Shown piece after piece: positions 39,225-60,713 of a stretch of DNA of 64,000 bases. The first letter of the stretch is position 1. The number at the start of each line of letters is the position of its first letter. The notes under the pieces were generated by a model. The model ran no database searches and was not told the DNA's origin. It saw only the letters and a program-made list of their open reading frames with translations. This DNA is from Acetobacterium woodii (GTDB lineage Bacteria; Bacillota; Clostridia; Eubacteriales; Eubacteriaceae): positions 62,001 through 126,000 of the forward strand of contig JACQZP010000011.1 in NCBI GenBank assembly GCA_016213825.1, in the 5' to 3' direction. The position numbers and the translations under genes were made by a program.

Positions 39225-39416
39225 GGATACATTTCTATTAAGGAATTTTACGAAGATGCATCAGCAAAGGCGTTAGATAATTTTGAAGAATTATGTTTTA
39301 CAGAGGCTTGCAGATATTGTAATATGCCATATAACGCTCAAGAAATAATCGCAGGTGAACAAATTGACGAGTTAACCAGATCCGCTGAAAGATATTTATT
39401 ATTTTCAAATATCTGA
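39225..39416 (+). pseudogene. Remnant of a radical-SAM protein C terminus
   Basis: The frame ending TGA at 39414-39416 encodes CRYCNMPYNAQEIIAGEQI near its middle. This closely parallels the end of the intact radical-SAM gene at 50637 (CPNCNGDYDLNKILLPAGEQI). The rest of the radical-SAM domain, including its CxxxCxxC, is missing. It runs directly into the next remnant, so a deletion probably joined the two. Confidence 0.6.
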
Positions 39417-40067
39417 AAATGAGTTGACAATTCATATAATAAATTAATACACAGATAAAATAATAGAAAACTTAAAAGAAGAACTCAAAAACTATGAAAA
39501 GTACATTAGTAAATTGAATATTGGTTCAGAAAATAATGTAGGTTGTGTGAATTTTGTTGGCTGAGGATTAACACAAAAATTTATAGAAATAATTTTAAAT
39601 AAACCTTTAAAAGATTTCTATTTTACCACAGAATTAGGTATGGATAATATTTTAACTAATGCAGATAATAACTATGGCTTATATAATCATGTGAATGCAA
39701 ATATCAGCAAGTCTTATTTTCTACCAAATTATTTGATAGATGAAATTATTTTTCTCATCACCAGAGGACAGTTGATAAAAAGGGATACCCTGTCTATACT
39801 AAAAATGCATGTGTAGAGTTTGTCTCTTACAGAACAATGCCATAAACGCATTAAGAAATATGTTGGTGAATTTTGGAATATGGCCAATTTTTATTGGAAA
39901 GAGAGCTTGAGGGAGTTTTAATTGACAGGTTTTTCGGTCTACTGATATCTGGTAAAAGTTTCATTTCAAATCAAATAAAGAAAGGTTTGTTTTTAAATGA
40001 TTATTACAATAGCGAAACAGAAAATATGTATCTAGATTTAGACGTAAATTCAGAAAGAGAGTCTTAA
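39390..40067 (+). pseudogene. Decayed copy of the COG5610-type HAD protein (3' part)
   Basis: Stretches in different frames match the C-terminal third of the intact gene at 54183. Examples are YYFQISENELTIHI, EKYISKLNIG, VGCVNFVG followed by TGA and then GLTQKFIEIIL, SKSYFLPNYL, LTEQCHKRIKKY and the last 64 residues (FLLERELEGVLIDRFFGLL, then NQIKKGLFLNDYYNSE). At least two in-frame stops and about three frameshifts break it. The final open piece (39873-40067) should not be called as a gene. Confidence 0.85.
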
Positions 40068-41403: not shown

Positions 41404-41441
41404 GATTTAGATTATATTCATGTTGCGAAAGGGGAATTACC

Positions 41442-42467: not shown

Positions 42468-42486
42468 TAAAAAAGGGTGATAACTA

Positions 42487-43488
42487 TTGAAATCAAAAAT
42501 AAAACCAATGGCAACAGCAGAAAGAGTTAGACTTTCAGATGTCGTTCCGTTAGATACACCTTTTACAGTTTATATTTATCCAACGACTTTCTGCAATTTT
42601 AGGTGCACTTATTGTGGACATTCGCTTGGCAAGGAAACGATGAAAGAAGTATATGACTTAGACTTTGAAACAATGGAAATGGATACTTTCAAACTTATAA
42701 TAGATCTGTTGAAAGCATTCCCCCGAAAATTAAAAGTTCTTTCATTGACAGGTCATGGAGAGCCTTTAATAAATGAAAATTTGTCTGATATGGTTCGTTA
42801 TGCAAAAGAAAACAACATATCTGAAAAAATAGAATTTATTTCCAATGGTTCTTTACTTACTAATGAAGTATCAAACAATCTAATAGATGCAGGACTTGAT
42901 TGCTTAAAATTATCTATTCAAGGTGTTACAGCAAAATCCTACAAAAAAGTATGTAATTATAATATTGATTATGAAGAATTCATAAAACAAGTGGAATACT
43001 TTTATAATAATAGAAAAAATTGCCAGTTATATGTTAAAACGATGGACATTGCTTTATCAGAAAACGAAAGAGAACTATTTTATAAAACTTATGAAAACAT
43101 TTCAGATAGAATGTATATAGAAGAAGTAAGAAATGTTTATTCTGGAGTCTCGTCAACTGAAAATATTAATGTGACAAAAGACAGATATGGCAGAACACAT
43201 GAAAAGAGACATGTTTGTCCGCTATGTTTTTTCGGACTTGGCATTTTGCCAAATGGTGATGTCAAGCCATGTGATTCTGTTTACAAACCTATTATACTCG
43301 GGAATGTTAGAGATTCTTCACTTATTGATATGTGGAATGGTAAAATCCTAAAAGAATTCAGACGAACGCAACTTAAAGGTGAAAGATATTCAAATGAAAA
43401 GTGTAAAGTATGTATTGCACCAGATGATGTTTCACACCCATTAGATGAATTAGATGCAAAAGCACAGGAAATATTGAAAAAATTATAA
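42487..43488 (+). CDS. Radical SAM/SPASM protein 2
   Basis: A 333-residue paralogue of the preceding protein, with C36-N-F-R-C40-T-Y-C43, the LTGHGEPLIN motif and a SPASM tail (CPLCFFGLGILPNGDVKPCDSVY and CKVCIAP). The N-terminal lead-in RVRLSDVVPLDTPF is shared with proteins 1 and 3. The start is TTG 42487, 19 bases after the previous stop, preceded by AAAAGGGTGATAAC. The substrate is unknown. Confidence 0.88.
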   Translation: MKSKIKPMATAERVRLSDVVPLDTPFTVYIYPTTFCNFRCTYCGHSLGKETMKEVYDLDFETMEMDTFKLIIDLLKAFPRKLKVLSLTGHGEPLINENLSDMVRYAKENNISEKIEFISNGSLLTNEVSNNLIDAGLDCLKLSIQGVTAKSYKKVCNYNIDYEEFIKQVEYFYNNRKNCQLYVKTMDIALSENERELFYKTYENISDRMYIEEVRNVYSGVSSTENINVTKDRYGRTHEKRHVCPLCFFGLGILPNGDVKPCDSVYKPIILGNVRDSSLIDMWNGKILKEFRRTQLKGERYSNEKCKVCIAPDDVSHPLDELDAKAQEILKKL

Positions 43489-43505
43489 AAAAATGCGAGG
43501 TATAA

Positions 43506-44540
43506 ATGGATAATAAGATTTTAAAAACACCAACAACTGGTGGGGAGAGAATACCTCTTGCAGATAACTTACCGCTTCACACACCTTTACTAATTCAAAT
43601 TTTCCCAGTTTATGCTTGTAATTTTAAATGTGGCTATTGTATTTATGCAATAGACAAGAGTAAACATGGCTATATTTCAGACAGAGTATTCATGGAAATG
43701 GACTTATACAAGAAATCTATTGATGGTATGAAGCAGTTTGATAAGAAAGTTAAAATGTTACGCTTCGCCGCAATCGGCGAACCATTGTTACATAAGAACA
43801 TTGCTGATATGATTGATTATGCTAAAAATGCTGACATAGCTGATAATATAGATATTGTTACAAACGGTTCGTTACTTACCGAAAAACTTTCTGATGATCT
43901 AATAAATGCGGGACTTTCAAAACTAAGAATATCACTGGAGGGATTGAGTAACGAAGATTATAAAAAGAATAGTAGTGTAAATATTGATTTTAATAGACTA
44001 GTTCAAAATATAGCATATTTCTACAAAAATAAAAAACAATCTAAAATTTATATAAAAATTATCGATTATATGCTGAAAAATGATGAATATAAAAATAAGT
44101 TTTATGATACATTCTATCCCATTTGTGATGAAATTGCAATTGAGCATTTAACACCAACCATAGCTGATATAGATTATAGCAAAATGTCAGATGAAAAATT
44201 AGATAAGCCTCAAAACGAAGAAAAAATGATTGATACAAATATTTGCTCGGAACCTTTTTATTTAATGCAGATTAATCCTGATGGTAAAGTTGTACCTTGT
44301 TGTAATATGACATATCCAGAAATTTTGGGAGATGTCAATATTAATTCAGTTAAAGAAATATGGAATGGCAAAAAGTTTAATTGTTTTAGACTGCGACAGT
44401 TAAATGGAACTAAAAGCACATGTGATGTGTGTAAGGAGTGCAAAACATATTTATATGGCATGCACAGGGAAGACTTACTTGACAATAATAAGGTTGAATT
44501 GATTGGTAAGTATAAACTGGAGAAGGAAGATGGAGAATAA
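43506..44540 (+). CDS. Radical SAM/SPASM protein 3
   Basis: A third paralogue, 344 residues, with C38-N-F-K-C42-G-Y-C45, the FAAIGEPLLH motif and a SPASM tail (CSEPFYLMQINPDGKVVPCCNMTYPEILG and CDVCKECKTYL). The double cysteine in VPCC is a small difference from protein 2. The start ATG follows TGCGAGGTATAA. The gene overlaps the next start by 11 bases. Three such genes in a row are unusual. Confidence 0.88.
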   Translation: MDNKILKTPTTGGERIPLADNLPLHTPLLIQIFPVYACNFKCGYCIYAIDKSKHGYISDRVFMEMDLYKKSIDGMKQFDKKVKMLRFAAIGEPLLHKNIADMIDYAKNADIADNIDIVTNGSLLTEKLSDDLINAGLSKLRISLEGLSNEDYKKNSSVNIDFNRLVQNIAYFYKNKKQSKIYIKIIDYMLKNDEYKNKFYDTFYPICDEIAIEHLTPTIADIDYSKMSDEKLDKPQNEEKMIDTNICSEPFYLMQINPDGKVVPCCNMTYPEILGDVNINSVKEIWNGKKFNCFRLRQLNGTKSTCDVCKECKTYLYGMHREDLLDNNKVELIGKYKLEKEDGE

Positions 44541-46053: not shown

Positions 46054-47175
46054 GTGAGCAAATTTATGAGCGAAAAAATTGTAAAAAGTATAATAAATGA
46101 ATCAAAAGAGCCAAATTACAGTTTAAATAATTTTCCTTATGATAATGTAATTATTTATGGTGCCGGTGTGACAGGAAAATTGGTATATAAAATTTTCAAG
46201 TATCTTAATATAAATGTATTGTTTTTCTTAGATAGAGCTGCTACTAAAAACCAAACAGTGTTTGATCTGCCAGTATATCATTACAATGAGCAGATAATAA
46301 CTGAAAGTGATAAAAGTAATGCCGTGGTTATTACTCTGGATAAATTTAAATACAATATTAACGATGTTGTGAAGGAGTTAAATAATTGCGGTTTTGATAA
46401 CGCATTTTATGACCGCAACATAATGTGCAAATCTAACTTTTACCATTTTAACACAACTTATAACTTGGAAATTAACCTAAAAAATGAGGAAGAAAAGATT
46501 TTAAAAGCTTTTAATCTATTTGATGATGAAAATAGCAAAGAGGTTTTCATTAGTTTTTTGAAAGCTTACGCAACTTCTAATTTTGACAATACTGTAATAA
46601 GCAAAGGAACTTTAATTAATACAGATGTCAAACTTAACAAAGGTTATTCTAAGTATATTGATTGCGGTGCCTACATAGGTGATACTTTTAGCGAATTAAT
46701 TAAATTTATTAAACCAGAAATTTACGTTGGTATCGAGCCAATGATTGAAACATTTGAGTTGTTATCAAAAACAATTGATAATAATCCTAATTCGTATGAT
46801 AAAGCTTATCTCTTCCCTTGTGGTGTGGCTGATGTTAACTCGTATGCAAGTTTTGATGCCGACTTAAACGGTGGCAGCGGACTTAGTGAAAATGGGAAAT
46901 CTACGATAATAACAAGCAAAATTGATAGTCTATTAAAAAATATTTCCCCTACGATCATAAAAATGGATGTTGAAGGAGCAGAAATACCTGCCTTAAAGGG
47001 GGCGAAAGAAACTATATTAAAATTTCAACCAGATTTAGCTATATGTGTTTATCATAGATTATCAGACCTTTGGAATATTCCACTTTTGATTAAGAATTTT
47101 GATCCTAATTATAAACTCAGTTTGAGATGTTATGGAATCGCAACTCTTGAGACAATTTTATTTGCTACAATTTAG
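46054..47175 (+). CDS. FkbM family methyltransferase with an N-terminal Rossmann-like module (copy 1)
   Basis: The first 110 residues form a Rossmann-like module (NVIIYGAGVTGKLVYKIFKYLNINVLFFLDRAA and DLPVYHYNEQII). The C-terminal half is an FkbM methyltransferase: D203-C-G-A-Y-I-G-D-T, then IIKMDVEGAEIPALKGAKETI and PDLAICVYH. FkbM enzymes usually O-methylate sugars. The GTG at 46054 is the longest start; ATG 46066 is an alternative. A related gene lies at 53043. Confidence 0.88.
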   Translation: MSKFMSEKIVKSIINESKEPNYSLNNFPYDNVIIYGAGVTGKLVYKIFKYLNINVLFFLDRAATKNQTVFDLPVYHYNEQIITESDKSNAVVITLDKFKYNINDVVKELNNCGFDNAFYDRNIMCKSNFYHFNTTYNLEINLKNEEEKILKAFNLFDDENSKEVFISFLKAYATSNFDNTVISKGTLINTDVKLNKGYSKYIDCGAYIGDTFSELIKFIKPEIYVGIEPMIETFELLSKTIDNNPNSYDKAYLFPCGVADVNSYASFDADLNGGSGLSENGKSTIITSKIDSLLKNISPTIIKMDVEGAEIPALKGAKETILKFQPDLAICVYHRLSDLWNIPLLIKNFDPNYKLSLRCYGIATLETILFATI

Positions 47176-47187
47176 GGAGAAAATAAT

Positions 47188-48999
47188 ATGAACTATCTAA
47201 TAGTAATGCCACAAATAACGAAAATAAAAGAACAATATTACCCTTTTCCAATTGGTCTTGCTTATGTATCGGCAAGTTTAAAATCTACTGGCAGGAATGT
47301 AGTTACACTAAATTTGAATTATAAGGAATCATCAATATTTGACATACTAAAAGAACATATTGAAGAAAATAACATTGATGTATTGGCAACTGGTGGACTG
47401 ACTGCACAATACAATCAAATAAAAGAAATATTAGAATTTGCAAAAAAAATCAAACCATCAATTGTTACAGTTGTTGGTGGAGGGATTATCACAAGCGATG
47501 CTGAGTCCGCAATGATAGCTTTGGAAGTTGCCGATTATGGAGTTATTGGCGAGGGTGAAATAACCATCTGCGAACTTGCAGAAGCTTTTGAAAAAGGTTT
47601 GGATTTACAAACAGTTGATGGTTTAATATATAAAAAAGAGAGTATCTATAATATAACCAATCAACGAAAAGAAATCATGGATTTAGACACTTTACCATTT
47701 CCAGATTATGAAGGATTTGAATTTAAAGAAGTTATAAATAAATCACCATCAGATATTTATGCTTTTGTAGATGGTAATTTTGCAATGGTTAGTTTTGGCC
47801 GTTCTTGTCCATATAACTGCACATTTTGCTTTCATTCAAGTGGTACAAAATATAGAAAAAGATCATTAAACAGCGTTTTTAGGGAGTTAGATATAATTGT
47901 TTTAAAATATAAAATAAAAAATATTGCGATTACGGATGAGCTCTTTGCGGCAAAAAAAGACTATGTAAATGAATTTTGCGAAAGAATAAAGAAATATAAT
48001 ATCGGCTTTGTTGTTTCCTTAAGAGTTGATATTATCACAAAAGAAATATTGCAAATGTTAAAGAATAGTGGTTGTATTTCTGTTGGGTTTGGACTAGAAT
48101 CAGCAGACAATTCCATTTTAAAAAGTATGCATAAAAATATTACTGTTGAACAAATTGATAATGCTTTAACTTTATGTAATGAAGTTGGTTTAAATGCACA
48201 AGGTAATTTTATTTTTGGTGACATAGAAGAAACTATTGAAACTGCCAATAATACGATCAGCTGGTGGCTAGCTCATCCGCAATTTCAAATTGCGCTTCAC
48301 TTTATAGTTGTTTATCCAGGAACACATCTTTACAATTATGCGTGCCAAAAAGGCGTTATAAAAGATAAAGTGCAATTTATTAAAGACGGCTGCCCTTACA
48401 TTAATATTTCTAAACTAAGTGATGTTGAATATAAAGAATTAGCTACTCGTTTGGATACATTATCACTTACGAGAACAGAGTATTTTAAGAATGTATCGAT
48501 AAAAAGTAAAGAGTTTGGGAAAGTAGATTTTACTGGTGATTGCCCCACTTGTGGCATTACTAATACATTCATAAATCTTGATGTTTTTAGACCATTGTCA
48601 AATGTTGAATGTAAAAATTGCAACAAAATGATGAATATTTTGGTTGCTGATTATATAGATGATACTTTTGAAAAAAACATTAACAGCTTACTCAAAGAAC
48701 ATAAAATTGCCATTTGGCCTGTCAATAATACTTTAACTGCAATTTTTGATAATTCAAAATCTTTAAGCCAAGAAAATGTCTTTCTTATAGATTCTTCTCC
48801 TTTTAAGCAGGGTAATAATATTATGGGAAAAACAATTCAAAGTCCTAAAATTATCAATGATGAGAAAATTGATATTGTTATTGTCACTGTTACAACTTCT
48901 ATTGGCAACGAAATAATTGATATTATAGAAAAAAATTATAAGACCGTTACTAAAATTCTATTTCTTGGAGAATTAATTAACAAATATTTTCAAATTTGA
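47188..48999 (+). CDS. B12-binding-type radical SAM protein with zinc-ribbon-like and Rossmann-like C-terminal parts
   Basis: Residues 1-150 form a cobalamin-binding-like Rossmann domain (YPFPIGLAYVSASLKSTGRNV, then VVGGGIITSDAESAM and YGVIGEGEITICELAEAF). The radical-SAM domain has C207-P-Y-N-C211-T-F-C214. Later, CPTCGITN and ECKNCNKMM form a zinc-ribbon-like knuckle. The last 95 residues repeat the Rossmann-like module of the neighbours (VFLIDSSPFKQGNNIMGKTI). B12 radical-SAM enzymes often methylate unreactive carbons; the substrate here is unknown. The start ATG follows AGGGAGAAAATA. Confidence 0.85.
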   Translation: MNYLIVMPQITKIKEQYYPFPIGLAYVSASLKSTGRNVVTLNLNYKESSIFDILKEHIEENNIDVLATGGLTAQYNQIKEILEFAKKIKPSIVTVVGGGIITSDAESAMIALEVADYGVIGEGEITICELAEAFEKGLDLQTVDGLIYKKESIYNITNQRKEIMDLDTLPFPDYEGFEFKEVINKSPSDIYAFVDGNFAMVSFGRSCPYNCTFCFHSSGTKYRKRSLNSVFRELDIIVLKYKIKNIAITDELFAAKKDYVNEFCERIKKYNIGFVVSLRVDIITKEILQMLKNSGCISVGFGLESADNSILKSMHKNITVEQIDNALTLCNEVGLNAQGNFIFGDIEETIETANNTISWWLAHPQFQIALHFIVVYPGTHLYNYACQKGVIKDKVQFIKDGCPYINISKLSDVEYKELATRLDTLSLTRTEYFKNVSIKSKEFGKVDFTGDCPTCGITNTFINLDVFRPLSNVECKNCNKMMNILVADYIDDTFEKNINSLLKEHKIAIWPVNNTLTAIFDNSKSLSQENVFLIDSSPFKQGNNIMGKTIQSPKIINDEKIDIVIVTVTTSIGNEIIDIIEKNYKTVTKILFLGELINKYFQI

Positions 49000-49451
49000 C
49001 CACTATTTGAACTCAGAATGGATTTAAAGATTGTTATTACTGACTAAAGTTTTTACCCAGTGGCCTAATATCATGAAGAAAAAAGGCAACATCATACTTA
49101 TAGAAAAAGAATTAAAATTAAATAAAGTTCATATTAATCAATGGAAATGTACGATGTCTTAGAAGCATGGCTTACGAATACGCATATTATATACCAACAT
49201 CTCCATACAAGTCATAATTGGTTTGAAAAATCACGAACAAAACAGGACCTTAAAAATGAACTGGTTTACAACCGCTATTATCATGACGATCATGAACGCA
49301 ACAATTCGGTTATATAATTTGCTAATATTATAATATGACAATATCAGACTCCATTTTAAGCACGTAATCAAAAAAATTAGATCAAAATGTTGCAAAATCG
49401 CTTGACCGCTGCATATTTAGGGACAAATAATATTGGAAACGAGGAAGGTAA
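49000..49451. other. Non-coding gap between the two modification operons
   Basis: A 56-codon frame from ATG 49147 to 49317 (starting MYDVLEAWLTNTHIIYQHLH) lacks a ribosome-binding site and a known family; it may be a remnant. No terminator or promoter is clear. Confidence 0.35.
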
Positions 49452-50615
49452 ATGTTTGAAGAAACTATGAGTAATGATCTTTACTTTTTAAGATGGTCTA
49501 TCAATAAAACTTATATTTTATTTGGTGCTTCCGAAACAATTGTAAAATTTAGAAATGCTTTTGATTTTGAGATAGATTTAAAATGTATTGTTGACAATTC
49601 AAAAGAAAAACAGAACAAGTACTTTGGAAGTTTAAAAGTTAATGACCCATCTTATTTGAATAGTATTAAAAACGAATGCCAAATAATAATCACTGCTCCT
49701 TCAATAAAAGCTCAAATTCAGATTAAAGAACAATTGGAAAGTATGGGTTTTATTGAAGGACAGAATTTTACAACATATACTAAACTTATGATGGTTTGGA
49801 AATGGTACACTGATAGATCAATTGCTGTAAATTATACAGAAGTCATGATCACAAGTAAATGTAATCTTAAATGTCAGAATTGTGGTTTGTATATTCCTTG
49901 CTATGAAAATCAAGAACATAGAACTATTGAGTCAATCAATCGTGACTTAGATTCATATTTCAAGGTTATAGATTATGTTAGTGAATTCAGGTTATTGGGA
50001 GGAGAACCACTTATTTACCCGGAAATTGTGGATTTAATTACAATTATCGGAGAAAAATACAGGGCTAAGATAGGAGAATTTGTGATTGTAACGAATGGTA
50101 TTGCTGCAGCAAAGTGCGACCTAATCACAGTCATGAAAAAGTTTAATGTTGTTTTTCATATAAGTGATTACTCGAACACGCTCCCACAAATACGTAAATC
50201 AATTGGTAAATTGATAATAAGATCAGAAGAAGCTGGGATAACTTATAAAAGAAATTCGTCAAATAAATGGCTTGATTTAGGTTCCCCGTTCAATTCAAGA
50301 AAATTGTCAAAAAAACAATTGATTGAAAAATTCAACCGTTGCAAAATGCCATGCAGAAGTTTATATAATCAAAAGATGTTTTATTGTGGTCCTTTAAGCA
50401 GTGCGGTTATGGCTAGAATATATAGCTCAGTTCGAAATGATTATTTTGACCTCTCTGAAGCGCAATATATGTCTAAAGAAGAAAAGTTTAACAGTTTATT
50501 AAACTTTGAGCTAGGGAATACTCAAATGGGCTATATAACATTTTGTGATTTTTGTAATGGATTTGGGTGTGATAACACCTTTTATGTAGAACCAGGAGTT
50601 CAAATTGAAATGTAA
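49452..50615 (+). CDS. Radical SAM protein with an N-terminal Rossmann-like module (4)
   Basis: The 387-residue protein begins with the shared module (NKTYILFGASETIVKFRNAFDFEIDLKCIVDNSKE and later CQIIITAPSIKAQIQIKEQLESMGF). The radical-SAM core follows with C137-N-L-K-C141-Q-N-C144 and FRLLGGEPLIYPEI. The C-terminal cysteines are CKMPCRSLYNQKMFYCGP and CDFCNGFGCD. It is a close relative of the next gene. The start follows GAGGAAGGTAA. The substrate is unknown. Confidence 0.86.
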   Translation: MFEETMSNDLYFLRWSINKTYILFGASETIVKFRNAFDFEIDLKCIVDNSKEKQNKYFGSLKVNDPSYLNSIKNECQIIITAPSIKAQIQIKEQLESMGFIEGQNFTTYTKLMMVWKWYTDRSIAVNYTEVMITSKCNLKCQNCGLYIPCYENQEHRTIESINRDLDSYFKVIDYVSEFRLLGGEPLIYPEIVDLITIIGEKYRAKIGEFVIVTNGIAAAKCDLITVMKKFNVVFHISDYSNTLPQIRKSIGKLIIRSEEAGITYKRNSSNKWLDLGSPFNSRKLSKKQLIEKFNRCKMPCRSLYNQKMFYCGPLSSAVMARIYSSVRNDYFDLSEAQYMSKEEKFNSLLNFELGNTQMGYITFCDFCNGFGCDNTFYVEPGVQIEM

Positions 50616-50636
50616 TATGTTGAAAGGAAAAATATA

Positions 50637-51770
50637 ATGACATATAATAAAAAAATCGATAAACTGATTTCTTTTTTATCTGATGATATTGAGTTTATAT
50701 TATTTGGAATTGGTCGTAATTATGAACTGTTTAAAAATTGCCTTAAAGACAAATTGAAGGTTTCTTATTGCGTTGATAATGAATTCTCACTTCAAGGCCA
50801 GAAGATAGACGGATTAGAAATAAAAAATCCAAATGAGTTAATGAATAAATTACCGGAGCAAAAAATATTAATTCTATCTGGATCTGTATGTGCGATAAAA
50901 AATCAGTTAGATTTAATGGGGTTTAAAAATCATGAGGATTATTGTTATGTAAGAGAAATAATTCCTTTATTTTACTGGACAAATGAAAGAAAACTATTTT
51001 TGACGGATACTTCATTTTTGATCACGTTTAATTGTACGTTGAAATGTAAAAATTGTAGCTTGAAAATTCCTTATATATCAAAGACGCAACATAGAGATAT
51101 TGTTTCTTTGAAGCAGGACATTGATTTGTATTTTAAATATGTCGATTTTGTCTATAATTTCAAAATAATGGGTGGTGAACCTACGATGTCACCATATCTA
51201 GAAGAAATATTATTATACATTGGAAAGAATTATCGCAAAAAAATCTTTACTATCAAAGTAGTTACAAACGCTACGATACCGCTATCAGATGCAATCCTAA
51301 ATGTTCTGAAACAAAACAATATGACAATAGAAATAAATGATTATTCTGATTTTGTGAATTACAAAGTTTCAATAGGTGACTATATAGAGGCTCTCCAAAA
51401 AAACAATATTGATTTTATAAGTTATCGTACAACCATGAATGATAAATGGGTGGATTTTGGAGATCCAAATATAATTAATCATGAGCTTGAGACAGATATT
51501 CAAAACCATTTTTCGATGTGTGCATATTATAGTAGAGGTCTCTGTTTTTCAAAACTCTATTTTTGTACAATTAATGCTGCTTTAGCTAATTTAAAAATTA
51601 TAGATGATAACGAAAATGATTATCTAGATTTAACACTGAATATAAGTAAAGAAGAGATGTTTTTATTTGAAATGGGAATGTTAAAATTAGGTTACACTAC
51701 ACTGTGTCCAAATTGCAATGGAGACTATGATCTTAATAAAATATTATTGCCTGCTGGTGAGCAAATATAG
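50637..51770 (+). CDS. Radical SAM protein with an N-terminal Rossmann-like module (5)
   Basis: A 377-residue paralogue of the previous gene with the same layout. The module reads IEFILFGIGRNYELFKNCLKDKLKVSYCVDNEF and ends at about residue 105. The radical-SAM motif is C133-T-L-K-C137-K-N-C140, with FKIMGGEPTMSPYLEE. The C terminus ends CPNCNGDYDLNKILLPAGEQI, which matches the pseudogene fragment at 39225. The start ATG follows AAAGGAAAAATATA. Confidence 0.86.
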   Translation: MTYNKKIDKLISFLSDDIEFILFGIGRNYELFKNCLKDKLKVSYCVDNEFSLQGQKIDGLEIKNPNELMNKLPEQKILILSGSVCAIKNQLDLMGFKNHEDYCYVREIIPLFYWTNERKLFLTDTSFLITFNCTLKCKNCSLKIPYISKTQHRDIVSLKQDIDLYFKYVDFVYNFKIMGGEPTMSPYLEEILLYIGKNYRKKIFTIKVVTNATIPLSDAILNVLKQNNMTIEINDYSDFVNYKVSIGDYIEALQKNNIDFISYRTTMNDKWVDFGDPNIINHELETDIQNHFSMCAYYSRGLCFSKLYFCTINAALANLKIIDDNENDYLDLTLNISKEEMFLFEMGMLKLGYTTLCPNCNGDYDLNKILLPAGEQI

Positions 51771-51794
51771 AATTCAAATTGGGGGAAGAAAACA

Positions 51795-52973
51795 ATGTTA
51801 GATGGAACGTTTGAAAATCCAACAAAAATATTTTTTGGTAAAGGCTTTGAAAATGATATTGGTAAAGAAATTGTAAAGTATTCAAAAAATGTGTTGCTTC
51901 ATTTTGGTTCAGGTAGTATAAAAAAAAATGGTTTATATAATCGTATTTTGAAATCTTTAAATGATTATGATATAAAATTCACAGAACTTGGGGGCGTGCA
52001 ATCTAATCCTAAAACAAATTTAATTTATGAAGGAATACAGATTTGTAAAAGTAAAAATATAGATTTTGTACTTGCAATTGGCGGTGGAAGTGTAATAGAT
52101 TCTGCTAAAGCAATAGCGATTGGGGTACCATATGATGGTGATTTTTATGATTTTTTTGAAGGTAAAGAAAATCCCCAAAAAGCAATAAAAATTGGGACCA
52201 TACTTACTATATCAGGTTCAGGAAGTGAATCTATTTCAGGAGCGGTAATAAGCGATTTGGAAAAAGGAACTAAATTATCTTATGGTAATCCTTTGATGTT
52301 TCCTGTATTTTCAGTGATGAATCCCGAGTTAACATTCACGGTTCCTAAACATCTTACTTCAGCGGGTATTGTGGATTCTATTTCACATATTTTAGAAAGA
52401 TATTTCAGCAATACATTATATACAGAATGCACAGACAGAATGAGTGAAGGAATAATAAGAACTTTGATGAAGTATGGACTTAAAATAATGGAGTGTCCAA
52501 TGGATTATGATATTAGATCAGAAATTATGTGGGCAAGCAAGATAGCACATGACAATAGTTTAGGTTTTGGAAAAAAGCAAGATTGGTCGTGCCATACTAT
52601 CAGTCATGAAATAGCTGCAAAGTATGATTTTATACATGGGAATATATTAGCAGTAATAATACCTGCCTGGATGAAATTTGTTTATCAGAAGAATAATTTT
52701 AAATTTGTCGAACTTGGTAAAAATGTCTTTGAGTTAGATATAGATATTTATGAAAATGGTAAAGAAGTAGGTGAAATCGTAATCCGAAAATTTAAGGAAT
52801 ATTTCAAAAATATTGGTATGCCAACTTGTCTGAGAGATTTGGGAAATGTTAACAAAGATGACTTTTGTGAGATTGCAAAAAAATGCAGCAATACAACACT
52901 AAGTGGAACAATAGGAAACTATGTTAGATTAACAGAGGAAAATATAATTACAATATTGGAAGCGTCATATTGA
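51795..52973 (+). CDS. Iron-containing alcohol dehydrogenase
   Basis: The 392-residue protein belongs to the group III (Fe-ADH) family, with the nucleotide motif GGGSVIDSAKAIA. The metal ligands are D194 and H198 (VDSISHILE) and H267 and H281 (HTISHEIAAKYDFIHG). It would interconvert an alcohol and a carbonyl with NAD(P)H. Its place between radical-SAM and FkbM genes suggests a sugar-type carbonyl substrate and not fermentation; that is inference. The fold is shared with dehydroquinate and 2-deoxy-scyllo-inosose synthases. The start follows GGGGGAAGAAAACA. Confidence 0.9.
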   Translation: MLDGTFENPTKIFFGKGFENDIGKEIVKYSKNVLLHFGSGSIKKNGLYNRILKSLNDYDIKFTELGGVQSNPKTNLIYEGIQICKSKNIDFVLAIGGGSVIDSAKAIAIGVPYDGDFYDFFEGKENPQKAIKIGTILTISGSGSESISGAVISDLEKGTKLSYGNPLMFPVFSVMNPELTFTVPKHLTSAGIVDSISHILERYFSNTLYTECTDRMSEGIIRTLMKYGLKIMECPMDYDIRSEIMWASKIAHDNSLGFGKKQDWSCHTISHEIAAKYDFIHGNILAVIIPAWMKFVYQKNNFKFVELGKNVFELDIDIYENGKEVGEIVIRKFKEYFKNIGMPTCLRDLGNVNKDDFCEIAKKCSNTTLSGTIGNYVRLTEENIITILEASY

Positions 52974-53042
52974 AAATTAATTATTATGGATTTTTAAGTA
53001 TCGTTAGAATAGATATAACTTAATAAACAAGGATAAGGAAAT

Positions 53043-54170
53043 ATGAAGAAAATAAACTATGTTGAAATACTCAATGAGAATAGTCTAATAAATAATTTTG
53101 TCGAGACTTGTAATAACACTAACATTAAACTAGCATTATTCGGATGTGGAAATGCACTTGTAAATGCGCTTGGATTTTTAAAATTCTTTAATATTACGCC
53201 ATATAAAATTATTGATAATGATTTTTGTAAAGTGGGAGAATTTGTCAATGATTTGGAAATTATAAGTTACGAAGCATTTAAATCGATTCATAATGAGTAT
53301 ATGGTACTTATTGTTCCACAGGATGTTAAAGCAATCAGAGAAATAAAAAAACAACTTATGGAAATAATGAGCGAGAATTTCATATATAGTTTTGATTTTA
53401 TTTATTTTGATTTTTATAATCAGATACAGTCATATTTAAGTTACAGAGATTTCTTTAAAGAGAACTTTGATGAAATCTTATGGTTGTTTGATAATTTAGA
53501 AGATGATAAATCTAAGGAGACTTTGATTGCGTTTTTAAAAGGCAGAATGACTCAGGACTATAAATATTATGAAAGTGTATATTGTGAAGAACAATACTTT
53601 GATAAGGAAATTGTGAAACTAACAGATAATGAAACATTTATAGATTGTGGAGCGTGGGATGGTGATACAATCATAGATTTTATGAATAGAGTTAACAGTT
53701 ATGATAATATTTATTGTTTTGAACCTGATAGTGTTACATTTAAAAAACTAGAATCTTTCGTTAAAGATAATGATTCAAGTAAAAAGATTGTTTTATTTGA
53801 AAATGCTGTTTGGAAAAAATCAGAGATTTTAAAGTTTAATGCAATAGGAGAAACGCAGTCAAATGTTTGTACTGATCAGAATTCGATTTATTCTACAGAG
53901 GTGAAAGCTATCGCATTGGATGATTGCAGTTTTGATAATGTAACACAGATAAAAATGGATATTGAGGGTTCAGAATATGAAGCTTTAATTGGTGCAACGC
54001 GGACTATAAGAGATTTCAAACCACGTCTTACAATTTGTGCATATCACAAGTATGAAGATTTGGTTTTAATTCCTAGATTTATAAAACAAATAGAACCTAG
54101 ATATAAATTGTTTTTGCGACAACACAAGCCATATGGATCTGAATTGGTTTTGTATGCTGTAGTAAAGTAA
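53043..54170 (+). CDS. FkbM family methyltransferase with an N-terminal Rossmann-like module (copy 2)
   Basis: A 375-residue paralogue of the gene at 46054. The module is IKLALFGCGNALVNALGFLKFFNITPYKIIDND. A linker follows, and then the FkbM core D201-C-G-A-W-D-G-D-T, with TQIKMDIEGSEYEALIGATRTI and PRLTICAYHKYEDLVLIPRFI. It probably O-methylates a sugar. The start follows AAGGATAAGGAAAT. Confidence 0.88.
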   Translation: MKKINYVEILNENSLINNFVETCNNTNIKLALFGCGNALVNALGFLKFFNITPYKIIDNDFCKVGEFVNDLEIISYEAFKSIHNEYMVLIVPQDVKAIREIKKQLMEIMSENFIYSFDFIYFDFYNQIQSYLSYRDFFKENFDEILWLFDNLEDDKSKETLIAFLKGRMTQDYKYYESVYCEEQYFDKEIVKLTDNETFIDCGAWDGDTIIDFMNRVNSYDNIYCFEPDSVTFKKLESFVKDNDSSKKIVLFENAVWKKSEILKFNAIGETQSNVCTDQNSIYSTEVKAIALDDCSFDNVTQIKMDIEGSEYEALIGATRTIRDFKPRLTICAYHKYEDLVLIPRFIKQIEPRYKLFLRQHKPYGSELVLYAVVK

Positions 54171-54182
54171 ACTGGAGATACT

Positions 54183-56366
54183 ATGCGTGATGTTGAAATA
54201 AATTTCAAGCAAAGTCTATTAGATAATTTTGATCACAACTTCGATAGTTTTAAAAATGATCCAATTGTTCTTTATGGAATTGGCGAAAAAACTGAGATTA
54301 TTCTTCAATTAGAAAATAAATACAATATAATCGGTTTGATGGACAGCAACAGTGTAGGTGATACAGTTTATGGATTTAGGGTTTTGACGAATCAAGAGGT
54401 AATAAAGAAAGCAGCAATTATAATAATAGTTGCTAATATAGCCTCATGTCCTGCCATTTACAAAAGGATAGAATTTTTAAGGAAAGAGCATGGAATTAAA
54501 ATTTTTTATCTAAATGGGTTTATTCCAGAAACTAATGAAAATTGTGATCGTGACCCATACTGGAGAAAGGGCTTAAATCACTTATATAAAGAAATAGAAA
54601 TGTATGATATCATATCTTTTGACATCTTTGACACAATAATTATGAGAAAGGTGCTATTACCTACTGATATTTTTGAACTAGTAGAGGAGAGGTTAAAAAA
54701 GCAATATAATATCGATATTGATTTTAAAAAAAATCGTATAAAAGCAGAAAGAAACTGTTATCAAAAAGTCGATAAGTATTGCGATTTAGTTCAAATATAC
54801 GAAGAATTAAAAAAAATTACTGATGTGTGCGAAGATACCCTGGAGAAAATTCGAAAACTGGAGTATGATATTGAATTTGAAAATTGTGTTGCAAGAGATG
54901 ATATATTAAGTGCTTATAACTATGCGATCAACAATAAAAAAACGGTATATTTAATTACGGATATGTATTGGGATAGGAAAATTTTGGTTGATCTTTTAGC
55001 CAGAAATTCTATTTATGGCTACGAGCAACTCTTAATATCGTGTGAACAGAAGAAATCTAAACAAAATGGCGACATTTGGGAGTTAGTTCTCAAAGAAATG
55101 ATTAATGGTAAAATACTTCATATAGGAGATAATCAACATGCTGATATTGAAGTGCCCCAAAAATATGGAATAAGCACTTATCATATCAGAAGCTCATTAG
55201 AGCTTATTCAAAGCTCTGACTTGAGATATTTATATGATAGCTGCGAAAATAAATTAACTGATAACCTAATTTTGGGAAAATTTGCTGCTAGTGCTTTAAA
55301 CAGCCCGTTTTCCTTAAGTAAGTATAAAGGCAAATTAGAAATAGAGACGATGTTTGATATGGGTTTTTTAATTTTAGGGCCGTTAGTACTTAATTATGTC
55401 TTATGGTTAATAAAAAAATGTGATGAGTGCAAAATTGATAAGGTATTATTTTTTTCTAGAGATGGGTATTTTATAAAAAAAATTTACGATTTTATCTCAA
55501 TAAAAATGAAAATAAAAGTACCAAATTCGATTTATTTTTTAACCTCAAGAAGAGCTGCAAGCGTAGCAACGATAAAAGATTTAGATGATATTGAATTCAT
55601 TATAAAAAATCTGTGTAAAATAAAGAAGTGCAAAATAGGAGAAATTATTTTCAGAGGTTTTGGTATTGAGATGGACAATGATGATAAGTTAAAAGATATG
55701 TATTATTTTCAGCTTTCGGAAGATGAATTGATATTTCATATACAAAATAAATACGCTGAGAGAATAATTAAGACATCAAAAGTAGAGCGCCTTAACTACG
55801 AAAAATATATCAGAAAACAAAATATTGATTTAGAAAATAATATTGGTTGTGTGAATTTTATTGGTAGAGGTTTAACACAGAAATTCGTAGAAGTAATTTT
55901 AGGTAGATCCATGAATGGCTTCTATTTTGCTACAGAGTCGGAAATAAAGAAATTTCTTAAAAGTTCTAAAAAGAACTTTGGTTTATATGGAGAATATGAG
56001 GATACATGTATTAGTAAGTCGTATTTGATCTCAAACTATATAGTAGGAGAAATTATATTTTCATCACCGGACGAGCAGCTAATTAAATTTGATAAAAAGG
56101 GATGCCCTATTTATAATAACAAAAGTAACAAAAGAGATTTTTCATTGATTGAGCAATGTCATCAAGGGATTGAGAAATATATTACTAATTTTCTGAAATA
56201 TGACACGTTTCTATTAGAAAGAGAGTTTGATACAGGGTTAATTGACAAGTTATTTGGTCTGTTAGTATCTGATAAAAGTGTATTTTCAAACCAAATAAAA
56301 AAGGGATTACTTTTTAATGATTACTATAATAGTGAATCGGAAAATATATATATAGATTTAAACTGA
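54183..56366 (+). CDS. COG5610-type HAD superfamily protein with a Rossmann-like module
   Basis: The 727-residue protein starts with the shared module (DPIVLYGIGEKTEIILQLENKYNIIGLMDSNSVGD). A HAD phosphatase-like domain follows, with D147-I-F-D-T, LITDMYWD and ILHIGDNQHADIEVPQKYG. The C-terminal 350 residues are family-specific (FFSRDGYFIKKI, FLTSRRAASVAT, NFIGRGLTQKFVEVIL). Related proteins occur in polysaccharide clusters; the reaction is not established. A ruined copy lies at 39390-40067. The start follows CTGGAGATACT. Confidence 0.83.
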   Translation: MRDVEINFKQSLLDNFDHNFDSFKNDPIVLYGIGEKTEIILQLENKYNIIGLMDSNSVGDTVYGFRVLTNQEVIKKAAIIIIVANIASCPAIYKRIEFLRKEHGIKIFYLNGFIPETNENCDRDPYWRKGLNHLYKEIEMYDIISFDIFDTIIMRKVLLPTDIFELVEERLKKQYNIDIDFKKNRIKAERNCYQKVDKYCDLVQIYEELKKITDVCEDTLEKIRKLEYDIEFENCVARDDILSAYNYAINNKKTVYLITDMYWDRKILVDLLARNSIYGYEQLLISCEQKKSKQNGDIWELVLKEMINGKILHIGDNQHADIEVPQKYGISTYHIRSSLELIQSSDLRYLYDSCENKLTDNLILGKFAASALNSPFSLSKYKGKLEIETMFDMGFLILGPLVLNYVLWLIKKCDECKIDKVLFFSRDGYFIKKIYDFISIKMKIKVPNSIYFLTSRRAASVATIKDLDDIEFIIKNLCKIKKCKIGEIIFRGFGIEMDNDDKLKDMYYFQLSEDELIFHIQNKYAERIIKTSKVERLNYEKYIRKQNIDLENNIGCVNFIGRGLTQKFVEVILGRSMNGFYFATESEIKKFLKSSKKNFGLYGEYEDTCISKSYLISNYIVGEIIFSSPDEQLIKFDKKGCPIYNNKSNKRDFSLIEQCHQGIEKYITNFLKYDTFLLEREFDTGLIDKLFGLLVSDKSVFSNQIKKGLLFNDYYNSESENIYIDLN

Positions 56367-57240: not shown

Positions 57241-57390
57241 AATAGAATTAGATACATGTGTGGACAATAATCCTTGGACAACTGTCCAAGAGGGTTTTAA
57301 ATCAATAATTTTATAATTGATGAGATAGTGATAGGTCAGATGTCGGAGGCTTTTCAACAACAATAATAAAATAATAATAAGGTGGCTGGA

Positions 57391-57936
57391 ATGTATAGAT
57401 TAGTGAAAACGAAAATAGATGGATGCATAGAACTCAAAGTAAATGTATTTGAAGATGATAGAGGTGTTACTATGAAGCCCTTTCATGTTGATGAATACAA
57501 TCTTCTTGGCATTCCAGATGTTTTTAAAGAAGATTTAATGGTAACTTCAAGAAAAGGCGTGCTAAGAGGATTGCATTTTCAGAGCAATCCATTTTCGCAA
57601 GCAAAGCTTATTTACTGTGCAAAAGGTTCAGTTTATGATGTTGCAGTTGATATTAGAAAAAACTCGCCAACATATGGAGAATATGTTGATTTTGTAATTG
57701 ATGCAAAAAAACATAACTTAGCATATATCCCAGTAGGATTTGCACATGGGTATCAGGTCTTGGAAGATGATACAACAGTTATCTACAAAATGTCTTCCAT
57801 TTATTCGCTAGATCATGAAGGTGGGATCAGATGGGATTCATTAGGGATTGATTGGCCTATGAAAAATCCTGTTTTATCGGATAAGGATATCCTATTACCC
57901 AAATTTGAAGACTTTACTAGTAGTTTCAATTATTAA
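57391..57936 (+). CDS. rfbC: dTDP-4-dehydrorhamnose 3,5-epimerase-like protein (RfbC family)
   Basis: The 181-residue cupin has the RfbC pattern: VFEDDRGVTMKPFHVDEYN, the catalytic histidine in VLRGLHFQSNPFSQAKLIYCAKGSVYDVAVDIRKNSPTYG, and IPVGFAHGYQVLEDDTTVIYKMS. It epimerises C3 and/or C5 of a 4-keto-6-deoxy sugar. The neighbours make CDP-sugars, so its substrate is probably CDP-4-keto-6-deoxyglucose and not the dTDP form. ATG 57391 follows AAGGTGG at good spacing; GTG 57382 would place the start inside that site. Confidence 0.88.
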   Translation: MYRLVKTKIDGCIELKVNVFEDDRGVTMKPFHVDEYNLLGIPDVFKEDLMVTSRKGVLRGLHFQSNPFSQAKLIYCAKGSVYDVAVDIRKNSPTYGEYVDFVIDAKKHNLAYIPVGFAHGYQVLEDDTTVIYKMSSIYSLDHEGGIRWDSLGIDWPMKNPVLSDKDILLPKFEDFTSSFNY

Positions 57937-57951
57937 TCCAGAGGGGGTGAG

Positions 57952-58731
57952 ATGATGAAAGTAGTAATTTTATGTGGCGGTTATGGTACCCGAATTAGTG
58001 AAGAATCACACTTGAAACCTAAACCAATGATCGGAATTGGAGAAAGACCAATCTTATGGCATATCATGAAAAGTTACTCATATTACGGCTTTAATGATTT
58101 TGTGCTCTGTTTGGGTTATAAAGGTCATTTAATTAAAGAATACTTTTCAAACTATTTTCTTTACGGTTCAGATGTAACGTTTGACTTATCCAGTAATAAC
58201 AGCATGCAAATTCACTCCTGTGAATCAGTTGAGCCGTGGAAAGTTACGCTTGCCAATACTGGTCTTGAAACGATGACAGGCGGAAGAATTAAAAGAGTGA
58301 AAAAATATATAGGGGATGAAACGTTTATGTTAACTTATGGTGACGGGCTATCGGACGTAAATATTGAAGAACTTTACCAGTTTCATAAATCACATGGAAA
58401 GCTTGCTACTGTTACAGCCGTACAACCCAGCGGTAGATATGGAGTTTTAGGCTTAAATGAGGATTCCACAGTGCTTGAATTTGTTGAAAAACCAAAAAAT
58501 TTGGACGCCTGGATCAATGGCGGTTTTCTTGTACTTGAACCAGAAGTTTTGGACTATATTGAAGGCGATCAAACAAGCTTTGAGAAAGGTCCATTGGATA
58601 AACTAGCAGAAGATGGACAAATCGTTGCATATAAGCATGCTGGGTTTTGGCAGTGTATGGATACCCAAAGAGATAAACATACCCTTGAAACCATATGGGA
58701 AAATGGCAAGGCGCCATGGAAAGTGTGGTAG
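57952..58731 (+). CDS. rfbF: Glucose-1-phosphate cytidylyltransferase
   Basis: The 259-residue protein makes CDP-glucose from glucose 1-phosphate and CTP. The nucleotide-binding start is VVILCGGYGTRISEES, then HLKPKPMIGIGERPILWHIM. Further RfbF motifs are MLTYGDGLSDVNI, GGFLVLEPEVLDYI and FWQCMDTQRDKHTLE. The start follows AGAGGGGGTGAG; ATG 57955 is equivalent. It is followed by rfbG after seven bases. Confidence 0.96.
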   Translation: MMKVVILCGGYGTRISEESHLKPKPMIGIGERPILWHIMKSYSYYGFNDFVLCLGYKGHLIKEYFSNYFLYGSDVTFDLSSNNSMQIHSCESVEPWKVTLANTGLETMTGGRIKRVKKYIGDETFMLTYGDGLSDVNIEELYQFHKSHGKLATVTAVQPSGRYGVLGLNEDSTVLEFVEKPKNLDAWINGGFLVLEPEVLDYIEGDQTSFEKGPLDKLAEDGQIVAYKHAGFWQCMDTQRDKHTLETIWENGKAPWKVW

Positions 58732-58738
58732 GTCAAAG

Positions 58739-59809
58739 TTGTTTAATAATTTTTATAAAGGGAAAAATATTCTTATAACAGGTCACACTGGTTTTAAAGG
58801 GTCATGGCTTTCGATCTGGTTAACGAAACTGGGCGCAAATGTTACAGGTTACGCCTTAAATCCCCCTACTGAGCCTTCTATGTTTGAACTATGTAAAATT
58901 AATGATAGGATCAATTCCATCATTGGTGATATGCGAGATCGAGATAACTTAGTAAAGATAATTACCATGACACAACCGGAAATCATTTTTCACATGGCAG
59001 CGCAACCACTTGTAAGGCGTTCTTATGAACAGCCGATAGAAACTTTTGAAACGAATATTATGGGAACGGTTAATCTTTTGGATTCAGTTCGACATTGTCC
59101 ATCGGTAAGAGTAGTAGTGAATGTAACGACGGATAAATGTTATGAAAATAATGAATCGTTTTGGGGATATCGGGAAGTAGATCGGCTTGGTGGCTATGAA
59201 CCATATTCAAGTAGTAAAGCTTGTTCAGAGCTGGTTACGGATTCATATCGGAACTGCTATTTTAATCCTGATCAATATGATCAACATAAGGTTGCGATTG
59301 CTACTGCACGGGCTGGAAATGTAATTGGTGGAGGTGACTTTGCACTCGATCGATTGATACCGGATTGCATCAGGGGAATGATGCGTAATGAGGAATTGTT
59401 GATCCGCAATCCTCACGCTATTCGGCCTTGGCAGCATGTATTGGAGGCGTTAACTGGATACATGCAATTAGCAATGCGATTAGGCATAGATGGTTGTAAG
59501 TATAACGGCGCATGGAATTTTGGACCTGAGAAAGACAACGAAAAAGCTGTTGAATATATTGTTGACAAGATGTGTAGTCTTTGGGATGGAGACTCAAAAT
59601 ATCGATTTGACACAAGCCGTCAGCCGCATGAAACATCATATTTGAAATTAGATTCCTATAAGGCGAGAAAACTATTAGGTTATGAATCAAAGTTAGGTAT
59701 TAACAAAGCATTAGAGATGGTTGTTGATTGGATGGATGTGTATAAAAATAACAAAAAAAACTTATACGACTTTACGGTTTCTCAAATTAATGACTATGAA
59801 AATATTTAA
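58739..59809 (+). CDS. rfbG: CDP-glucose 4,6-dehydratase
   Basis: The 356-residue SDR enzyme converts CDP-glucose into CDP-4-keto-6-deoxyglucose. NAD binding is at ILITGHTGFKGSWLS near the N terminus. The catalytic part contains VNVTTDKCYENNE and the Y-x-x-x-K of EPYSSSKACSE. A long open frame extends upstream to 58613 inside rfbF, but TTG 58739 with GTAGG ahead gives the normal RfbG N terminus and length. It is probably co-translated with rfbF. Confidence 0.95.
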   Translation: MFNNFYKGKNILITGHTGFKGSWLSIWLTKLGANVTGYALNPPTEPSMFELCKINDRINSIIGDMRDRDNLVKIITMTQPEIIFHMAAQPLVRRSYEQPIETFETNIMGTVNLLDSVRHCPSVRVVVNVTTDKCYENNESFWGYREVDRLGGYEPYSSSKACSELVTDSYRNCYFNPDQYDQHKVAIATARAGNVIGGGDFALDRLIPDCIRGMMRNEELLIRNPHAIRPWQHVLEALTGYMQLAMRLGIDGCKYNGAWNFGPEKDNEKAVEYIVDKMCSLWDGDSKYRFDTSRQPHETSYLKLDSYKARKLLGYESKLGINKALEMVVDWMDVYKNNKKNLYDFTVSQINDYENI

Positions 59810-59834
59810 GAAAAGATTAAATTGTGGTGAGTAG

Positions 59835-60713
59835 ATGAAGAAGATATTAGTTACAGGAGGAACAGGCTTTGTAGGTTCCAATTTGGTGAGCAGACTAGTG
59901 CATCAGGGATACGAGACTCATGTTGTAGTAAGAAAAAACTCCAGCATTGACGAATTAAAGTCTTTAGACAGAAATCTCTTTATTCACGTTTATACTCACA
60001 GTCTTCAAAGCATGACAGAAATTTTTAAAAATGCTTCACCTGATATAGTTGTTCATTTAGCTTCTTTATTTATATCTGAGCATAATGCAGATGATATCGA
60101 TGAGCTTTTCCAGAGTAATTTATTATTTGGTACGCATTTATTAGAAGCTATGAAGCAAATGGATGTAAATTACTTAATAAATACGGGAACAAACTGGCAG
60201 AATTACTGTGGCAGTGATTATAATCCTGTGAATTTATATGCGGCAACAAAAGAGGCCTTTGAAGACATCGCAAAATTCTACACACAATCGACATCGATGA
60301 GAATGTTAACGCTTAGATTATATGATACGTATGGACCAAATGACAAAAGACCAAAGATTCTTTCTTTGTTTAAAAAGATTGCACGAACTGAAGAAAATTT
60401 AGATATGTCACCAGGGGATCAGCTTCTTGGATTTGTGTATATTGATGATGTAGTTGATGCTTTTTTAGGAGCAATCGAGTTAATTAAGTTAAAAGAAGAA
60501 CATTATCAAGAAGTGTTTTTTCTAAATCCAGATAAGTATTATTCTTTAAAAGAAGTTGTTGGAATTTATGAAGAGGTAAAAGCGATTCGACTAAATATCA
60601 ATTGGGGGCTAAGGCAATATCGTAGCAGAGAGGTCATGAAACCATTTGAAGGGAATAGATTACCTGGCTGGAATCCTAGGATAAATTTAAGAGAGGGACT
60701 TAATCTTGTTTAG
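59835..60713 (+). CDS. NAD(P)-dependent epimerase/reductase of a CDP-sugar pathway
   Basis: The 292-residue SDR protein has the Rossmann start ILVTGGTGFVGSNL and the catalytic Y-x-x-x-K in VNLYAATKEAFED. Later, DTYGPNDKRPKILSLFKK resembles CDP-abequose/paratose synthases (RfbJ/RfbS). It may reduce the C4 keto group of a CDP-6-deoxyhexose. No RfbH dehydrase is present, so the product may not be a 3,6-dideoxy sugar. The start is 26 bases after rfbG. It is the last gene of the island. Confidence 0.85.
   Translation: MKKILVTGGTGFVGSNLVSRLVHQGYETHVVVRKNSSIDELKSLDRNLFIHVYTHSLQSMTEIFKNASPDIVVHLASLFISEHNADDIDELFQSNLLFGTHLLEAMKQMDVNYLINTGTNWQNYCGSDYNPVNLYAATKEAFEDIAKFYTQSTSMRMLTLRLYDTYGPNDKRPKILSLFKKIARTEENLDMSPGDQLLGFVYIDDVVDAFLGAIELIKLKEEHYQEVFFLNPDKYYSLKEVVGIYEEVKAIRLNINWGLRQYRSREVMKPFEGNRLPGWNPRINLREGLNLV

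Follow-up and report, generated by a model that had tools for sequence, protein, structure and literature searches.

Why should enzymes as different as two methyltransferases, three radical-SAM enzymes and a HAD protein, encoded close together, carry the same small domain? This question is raised by a stretch of 64,000 nucleotides of Acetobacterium woodii (contig JACQZP010000011.1, positions 62,001 to 126,000; referred to here in full as the window), in which six different enzymes encoded within 10.3 kb have one Rossmann module of about 100 residues in common (Table 1). A preliminary description, made from the sequence alone, had proposed this sharing and had suggested that the module is a substrate handle or a scaffold for a multi-enzyme complex. 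The sharing itself is borne out by the profiles described below, and hidden Markov model (HMM) bounds confirm the placement given there, N-terminal in the two FkbM, two radical-SAM and HAD proteins and C-terminal in the B12 radical-SAM enzyme.

Table 1. Module-bearing enzymes of the window, their neighbours, and stand-alone and DNA-binding forms of the module at other loci (numbered L). aa, amino acids; SDR, short-chain dehydrogenase/reductase.
Feature	Location	Strand	Size or module position	Basis or remark
FkbM methyltransferase 1 (FkbM1)	46054..47175	+	373 aa	PF05050 5.8e-15, aa 203-331
Module of FkbM1	46081..46437	+	N-terminal, aa 10-128	HMM, E 2.2e-19 (own sequence in profile)
B12-binding radical-SAM enzyme	47188..48999	+	603 aa	PF02310 2.1e-18, PF04055 1.4e-19
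Module of B12 enzyme	48643..48993	+	C-terminal, aa 486-602	HMM, E 1.4e-17 (own sequence in profile)
Radical-SAM enzyme rSAM3	49452..50615	+	387 aa	PF04055 1.2e-9
Module of rSAM3	49494..49805	+	N-terminal, aa 15-118	HMM
Radical-SAM enzyme rSAM4	50637..51770	+	377 aa	Fold of catalytic part closest to SpeY
Module of rSAM4	50640..50978	+	N-terminal, aa 2-114	Leave-one-out profile; predicted structure
FkbM methyltransferase 2 (FkbM2)	53043..54170	+	375 aa	PF05050 1.6e-12
Module of FkbM2	53064..53417	+	N-terminal, aa 8-125	HMM
HAD protein	54183..56366	+	727 aa	TIGR01549 3.4e-4 (below cut-off); DIFDT motif by eye; relatives annotated HAD-IA
Module of HAD protein	54201..54536	+	N-terminal, aa 7-118	HMM
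Flagellin	31301-32503			Window gene; ahead of the island, as are other flagellar and chemotaxis genes
Three SPASM radical-SAM proteins	41400-44540			No module
Iron-containing alcohol dehydrogenase (Fe-ADH)	51795-52973			Between the six module genes
Sugar-nucleotide genes	57382-60713	+		No module; 3' of the six; Pfam supports last three
rfbC-like gene	57382	+		By eye
Nucleotidyltransferase	57952	+		Pfam; rfbF-like by eye
4,6-dehydratase-type SDR	58613	+		Pfam
Epimerase-type SDR	59835	+		Pfam
Stand-alone module	L107:6181-6678			N-terminal hydrophobic segment, hydropathy 3.5
Stand-alone module	L107:7929-8453			N-terminal hydrophobic segment, hydropathy 2.95
Stand-alone module	L116:13439-13927			Weaker N-terminal hydrophobic segment, hydropathy 2.0
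Winged-helix/MarR-type protein	L156:6312-6962		Module C-terminal
Winged-helix/MarR-type protein	L157:7254-7865		Module C-terminal
Winged-helix/MarR-type protein	L158:6267-6917		Module C-terminal

Single-sequence comparison was too weak to link most pairs of modules, with clear BLASTP links only between rSAM3 and rSAM4 (E 3e-10) and between FkbM2 and rSAM3 (3e-5), and profiles were therefore needed. We used leave-one-out profiles from which the target and its Fusibacter orthologue had been removed, with the search size set to 4000. Un-iterated, these recovered five of the six modules and missed the B12 copy; after two iterations all six were recovered (rSAM3 6.6e-18, rSAM4 4.7e-15, FkbM1 6.4e-15, FkbM2 7.9e-15, HAD 2.9e-10 and B12 1.7e-9, the last over aa 496-601). 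A profile of 98 modules with no rows from the window or Fusibacter scored the six at 3.6e-17 to 2.4e-10. Against the same profile, the best of 1800 shuffles reached 0.031 and the best of 62 other open reading frames (ORFs) of the window 7.8; two SDR-type Rossmann enzymes among the latter scored 7.8 and 380. As the 98 rows were gathered iteratively from a seed containing the window modules, the independence is that of the profile and not of its gathering. Six of the seven module matches at E <= 1e-5 in the 3.94 Mb genome fall inside the 10.3 kb (16 of 23 first-look candidates scored).

In an 11-row alignment of the module the Asp is invariant and the Gly near-invariant, and the key columns remain conserved in the module alignment (G30 96%, G32 81%, D54 80%). 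The Gly-rich turn that the preliminary description ascribed to the module is kept in most copies but has been lost from the B12 enzyme, where WPVNN stands in its place. As most copies retain this loop together with the Asp that follows strand 2, most would be expected to have a ligand of some kind. At column 60, also after strand 2, the fusions most often have a Trp (in DNNxxKWG; 27% of 90 rows), a residue that is not one of the three most frequent in rows labelled Rex or CapD.

Both FkbM proteins exceed the Pfam cut-off for Methyltransf_21 (PF05050; 56.3 and 48.3 bits for FkbM1 and FkbM2, cut-off 22.7). rSAM3 and rSAM4 are homologous throughout and share a conserved C-terminal Cys, and no Pfam HAD family matched the HAD protein at E <= 1. 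A Rossmann fold was predicted confidently by AlphaFold2 for rSAM4, the one module of the six that was modelled (predicted local distance difference test, pLDDT, 90.3; pTM 0.85). The model has five strands alternating with helices, a GxG loop after strand 1 and an Asp after strand 2, and its final helix (105-120) runs into the catalytic domain. Its best structural match was the orphan structure 2G6T, and it also matched Rex, VioB (7txp), the domain of unknown function (DUF) of WbaP, KijD1 (residues 307-412) and the N-terminus of the FkbM enzyme 2PY6. We assign the module to a group of accessory Rossmann domains that comprises Rex, PglD_N and PF13727 (the WbaP DUF), and the domain itself is already known.

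The six enzymes differ from each of the known systems. The N-terminal domain of PglD, NeuD and VioB (PglD_N, PF17836) has the same fold and motif, but it is joined there to an acetyltransferase domain that none of the six has. On FkbM1, PF17836 scored 9e-4 (20.2 bits, below the curated Pfam cut-off of 23.4) and NCBIfam NeuD 2.8e-7, far under the family cut-off; on the other five PF17836 was not listed at E <= 1. It was found on 12 of 106 module-bearing ORFs from the survey described below (E <= 1e-3), and some of these exceed its cut-off (e.g., the radical-SAM protein L101:8894, 28.6 bits). In WbaP-, CapD- and PglF-like proteins, PF13727 (CoA_binding_3) follows a membrane helix bundle, whereas no such bundle precedes the module in the six; PF13727 was not listed on them at E <= 1, and the catalytic domains differ while the fold matches (rSAM4 model). 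C2185-like_N (PF22674), the family of 2G6T from Clostridium acetobutylicum, matches the module in structure but was not listed on the six at E <= 1, nor was PF08484, the C-terminal domain of C-methyltransferases such as KijD1 and MtmC; the two occur on five and six of the 106 relatives, respectively (E <= 1e-3). The solved structure 2PY6, an FkbM methyltransferase of Methylobacillus flagellatus, contains the module with FkbM as the only partner, and no paper on its function was found in the open-access literature. Finally, the NAD(H)-binding domain of Rex (PF02629) gave the top Foldseek matches and the best sequence match in the PDB, and four Pfam-verified Rex proteins reached 2e-19 to 2e-16 with the module profile, on a par with the six. 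Rex differs in having its own helix-turn-helix (HTH) family (PF06971) and stronger CoA_binding scores, whereas the six have no DNA-binding domain; Pfam found no PF06971 on them, and only the Rossmann part of Rex matches. The preliminary description had known of no system with this combination. Both the fold and a number of fusions are on record (PglD/NeuD/VioB, PF13727 in CapD-like proteins and WbaP, PF08484 C-methyltransferases and 2PY6), but no account of one module recurring across numerous unrelated catalytic families was found in open-access full texts. What appears from these texts to be new, and was unexpected, is the breadth across enzyme families, together with regulator and anchored forms.

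We assessed this breadth in 291 Clostridia genomes, scoring up to 14 candidates per genome and fetching 20 stretches and further single loci. A module match at E <= 0.01 turned up in at least 196 of the 291 genomes; judged by size, many of these matches are Rex- or CapD-like. The loci were picked for having module matches, and the fractions given here are not rates across genomes. They contained 134 module-bearing ORFs, of which 106 were tallied after setting aside 12 labelled 'Rex', 11 labelled 'CapD' and five near-copies. These labels, which are also used in the tree, placement and similarity comparisons, derive from ORF length and module position: of seven 'Rex' ORFs checked by Pfam, four were confirmed and three (L045, L050 and L054) proved to be HTH/MarR proteins with the module, and all three 'CapD' ORFs checked were confirmed. 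Matches of about 215 aa had been candidates for NeuD/PglD, an assignment that we dropped, as those checked by Pfam were Rex or HTH-module proteins. Some of the 106 ORFs are cut by contig or stretch ends, including one counted as stand-alone (L110).

Among the families listed, the Pfam tally of the 106 ORFs gave 26 FkbM, 12 GT2, eight radical-SAM, five MptE-like, four glycerophosphotransferase and three cytidylyltransferase-like proteins, and two each of TupA ATP-grasp, LicD, deacetylase, GT4 and TylF. The tally spans 55 Pfam families, several of which describe one domain, and carries no positions. Scans of 20 ORFs that do give positions placed beside the module class I methyltransferase, GNAT-type acetyltransferase, GT11, ATP-grasp, TOD1/MUCI70, cytidylyltransferase, Gly_transf_sug, radical-SAM, MptE-like, WbsX, HAD, glycerophosphotransferase, GT2, pyruvyltransferase and FkbM domains; for L099:2873, also among the 20, Pfam gave no match. 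Of the 106 ORFs, 66 have the module at the N-terminus, 28 at the C-terminus and six internally, and in six it stands alone. One FkbM protein (L114:4354-5751) carries tandem modules (aa 8-110 and 134-243). Eight radical-SAM relatives align to rSAM4 solely outside the module and have no module ORF at their loci, and the module is thus optional for this enzyme type.

If the module were a docking device specific to this gene cluster, the six would be expected to be each other's best matches. The all-against-all comparison showed that they are not. rSAM3 and rSAM4 are clearly similar (28.6 bits), and FkbM2 and rSAM3 reach 20.2 bits (rank 2 of 96 from the side of rSAM3 and 6 of 96 from that of FkbM2), but all other window pairs rank 18th to 85th against the 96 modules of other loci. 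Apart from these two pairs, the six modules, compared by sequence, are not a specially related subset; the lack of specific mutual similarity that the preliminary description named as evidence against its proposal is thus found for most pairs, and the scaffold in its cluster-specific form is not supported. Beyond its Fusibacter orthologue, the HAD module finds its best match in the module that a GNAT-type protein of another genome carries (L097; 33% identity over 115 columns; E 3e-14 for the single comparison).

A more general docking scaffold, in which modules pair as in the Rex- or WbaP-like dimers and anchored stand-alone copies act as hubs that hold the enzymes of a pathway together, is nevertheless worth weighing. 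In thirteen of the fetched stretches, of which two adjoin on a single contig, there are four to seven module-bearing ORFs each, and stand-alone copies with a hydrophobic anchor were found, two in L107 and a weaker one in L116. Stand-alone-size relatives occur in four of 283 genomes (G040, G055, G082 and G223), each with at least four module matches, and similarity within loci is slightly higher than between loci (mean 10.4 versus 8.6 bits, 21 of 1000 permutations as high, with paralogues included). However, the loci that supply this support had been chosen for module matches, a pure scaffold would not need the ligand loop that most copies keep, and no stand-alone copy was found in the A. woodii genome at E <= 1e-6 or among Fusibacter ORFs of at least 100 aa. 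Together with the lack of specific mutual similarity among the six, this makes docking improbable. The stand-alone modules of L107 and L116 sit in loci rich in module-bearing or glycan-type ORFs.

Next, we consider how the module came to be on so many enzymes. The CapD-like modules formed one clade in a tree of 130, and the labels as a whole were more grouped than shuffled ones (37 changes versus 66.6). FkbM modules were partly grouped (14 versus 22.3), whereas GT2 modules were scattered as at random (13 versus 13.5). The expectation that modules would follow their enzyme families held in part, overall and for FkbM, and failed for GT2. As few branches are resolved (15 of 127 starred), the tree shows scattering and not history. 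The scatter across enzyme types points to repeated fusion and exchange of the module, probably with some loyalty to the enzyme. This could mean that the module is a relic or passenger, a stable Rossmann domain spread by recombination in glycan islands without a common function, as would befit its high divergence, the copies that have lost the Gly loop, the scatter over enzyme types and the module-less relatives. We regard this as distinctly improbable, given how well G30, G32 and D54 are conserved and how far the combinations persist. Module and radical-SAM domain occur together in Fusibacter and in rSAM4 relatives on a 36 kb plasmid of the spirochaete Brachyspira hyodysenteriae, in the actinomycete Nonomuraea and in a deltaproteobacterium; a search with rSAM4 in phages gave no match. 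The B12 enzyme has three plasmid relatives, of which those of a deltaproteobacterium (L153, E 0.0099) and Azospirillum (L154, 0.0015) have weak C-terminal module matches and the third (L155) has none. The alignment of the deltaproteobacterial protein with that of the window extends to aa 569 and reaches a C-terminal region in which the Gly loop is intact.

The reading that we prefer, tentatively and at not quite an even chance, is that the module is a nucleotide-responsive, dimerising, allosteric regulatory sensor. It would have been added repeatedly, at either end, to surface-glycan and probable flagellin-modification enzymes; its ligand would most likely be a nucleotide or nucleotide-sugar that the pathway makes or releases, and the module may dimerise and act allosterically, so that unlike enzymes of one pathway would answer to the same signal. 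We infer nucleotide binding, dimerisation, regulation and any effect on catalysis by analogy with WbaP, with its nucleotide-responsive DUF, and with Rex, in which an NADH sensor is joined to a winged helix. In the WbaP study, UMP, UDP and UTP are reported to raise the stability of the DUF and UDP-Gal to lower it; most of the dimer contacts lie in the DUF, and the enzyme is inhibited by UMP (PMC10942596). As CDP-deoxysugar-like genes adjoin in the window, in Fusibacter and on the Brachyspira plasmid, a cytidine nucleotide would be the first candidate ligand.

These adjoining genes can also be read in favour of a substrate handle. The module would take hold of an NDP-sugar by its nucleotide and offer the sugar to the catalytic domain, as happens in the PglD/VioB acetyltransferases and the C-3'-methyltransferases, and one CDP-sugar would be the common substrate of the radical-SAM, B12 radical-SAM and FkbM enzymes. 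VioB with bound TDP-amino-sugar and KijD1 are among the structural matches of the module. In the rSAM4 model used for comparing the catalytic half (pLDDT 73.5), that half is closest to SpeY, a twitch radical-SAM dehydrogenase, with BtrN, BlsE and CTP-bound viperin-like enzymes lower, and it fits, as far as a model can tell, a sugar-oxidising radical-SAM enzyme. However, the module also occurs on proteins with their own donor-binding or unrelated domains (GT2, GT4, GT11, WbsX, glycerophosphotransferase, ATP-grasp, deacetylase and HAD) and on DNA-binding proteins, and it sits at either end, which makes a handle unlikely, if still a serious contender. A separable sensor is favoured over a part of the active site because the module is found at either end, because its partners include enzymes with and without nucleotide-sugar substrates, and because three winged-helix proteins carry it.

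The winged-helix proteins resemble Rex in joining a Rossmann module to a winged helix. Two of the three are near-identical, and they therefore represent two independent sequences. Their genes lie a short way upstream of what look by eye like genes for a PglC-like transferase and an aminotransferase. In two of the three loci a small ORF intervenes and the other side has fatty-acid-type genes; this weaker context made us lower the sensor reading, and raise the relic, very slightly. A still broader possibility, quite unlikely in our view, is a general plug-in system for the control and assembly of bacterial surface-glycan synthesis that answers to one nucleotide, with an exchangeable module on some twenty enzyme families, membrane-anchored hubs and the pathway's own transcription factor. 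If this were true, enzymes would pair through the module, and catalysis, placement and gene expression would answer together. Annotation of glycan-island enzymes usually looks no further than the catalytic domain, and a module common to methyl-, glycosyl-, acetyl- and phosphotransferases, radical-SAM and HAD proteins, with copies on DNA-binding proteins, would be an overlooked common control input or meeting point of glycan pathways. The orphan structures 2G6T and 2PY6 would gain a first lead as well, and the feedback role put forward for the WbaP DUF would be widened.

The six genes are part of an island with a G+C content of about 29-34%, compared with about 37-40% in the flanks. Glycosyltransferases come first, followed by the three module-less SPASM proteins and then by the six module-bearing proteins; the Fe-ADH among them has no module (E 860 against the module profile). 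Two of the sugar-nucleotide genes downstream look by eye like rfbC and rfbF (57382 and 57952), names given from reading the sequence rather than from a comparison. Because flagellin, flagellar and chemotaxis genes precede it, the island probably modifies flagella. In the part available to us of an account of Geobacillus flagellin glycosylation islands, FkbM genes occur and radical SAM goes unmentioned (PMC5109656). The island has six radical-SAM genes (41400-44540 and 47188-51770), three of the SPASM type without the module, two with an N-terminal module and one B12 enzyme, a density that seems high for a putative flagellar island. At 39370-40040, two stretches with several stops, 48-50% identical to the C-terminal half of the HAD protein, are apparently the decayed remnant of a second HAD gene.

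Comparable constellations exist elsewhere. Fusibacter sp. 3D3 is a relative with orthologues of the window modules, and its locus (L005) combines module genes with adjoining sugar-nucleotide genes, much as in the window. The Brachyspira plasmid pBHWA1 (L150, 7246-20832) encodes module-bearing radical-SAM and HAD proteins, six more radical-SAM/SPASM genes, rfbF and rfbC, and so holds much of the gene set of the window in another phylum, borne on a plasmid. The deltaproteobacterial plasmid that encodes a relative of the B12 enzyme also carries five ORFs (L151, 11812-22729), annotated as hypothetical, in which an N-terminal module is combined with a CxxxCxxC motif; the one of these that was checked is a radical-SAM protein by Pfam.

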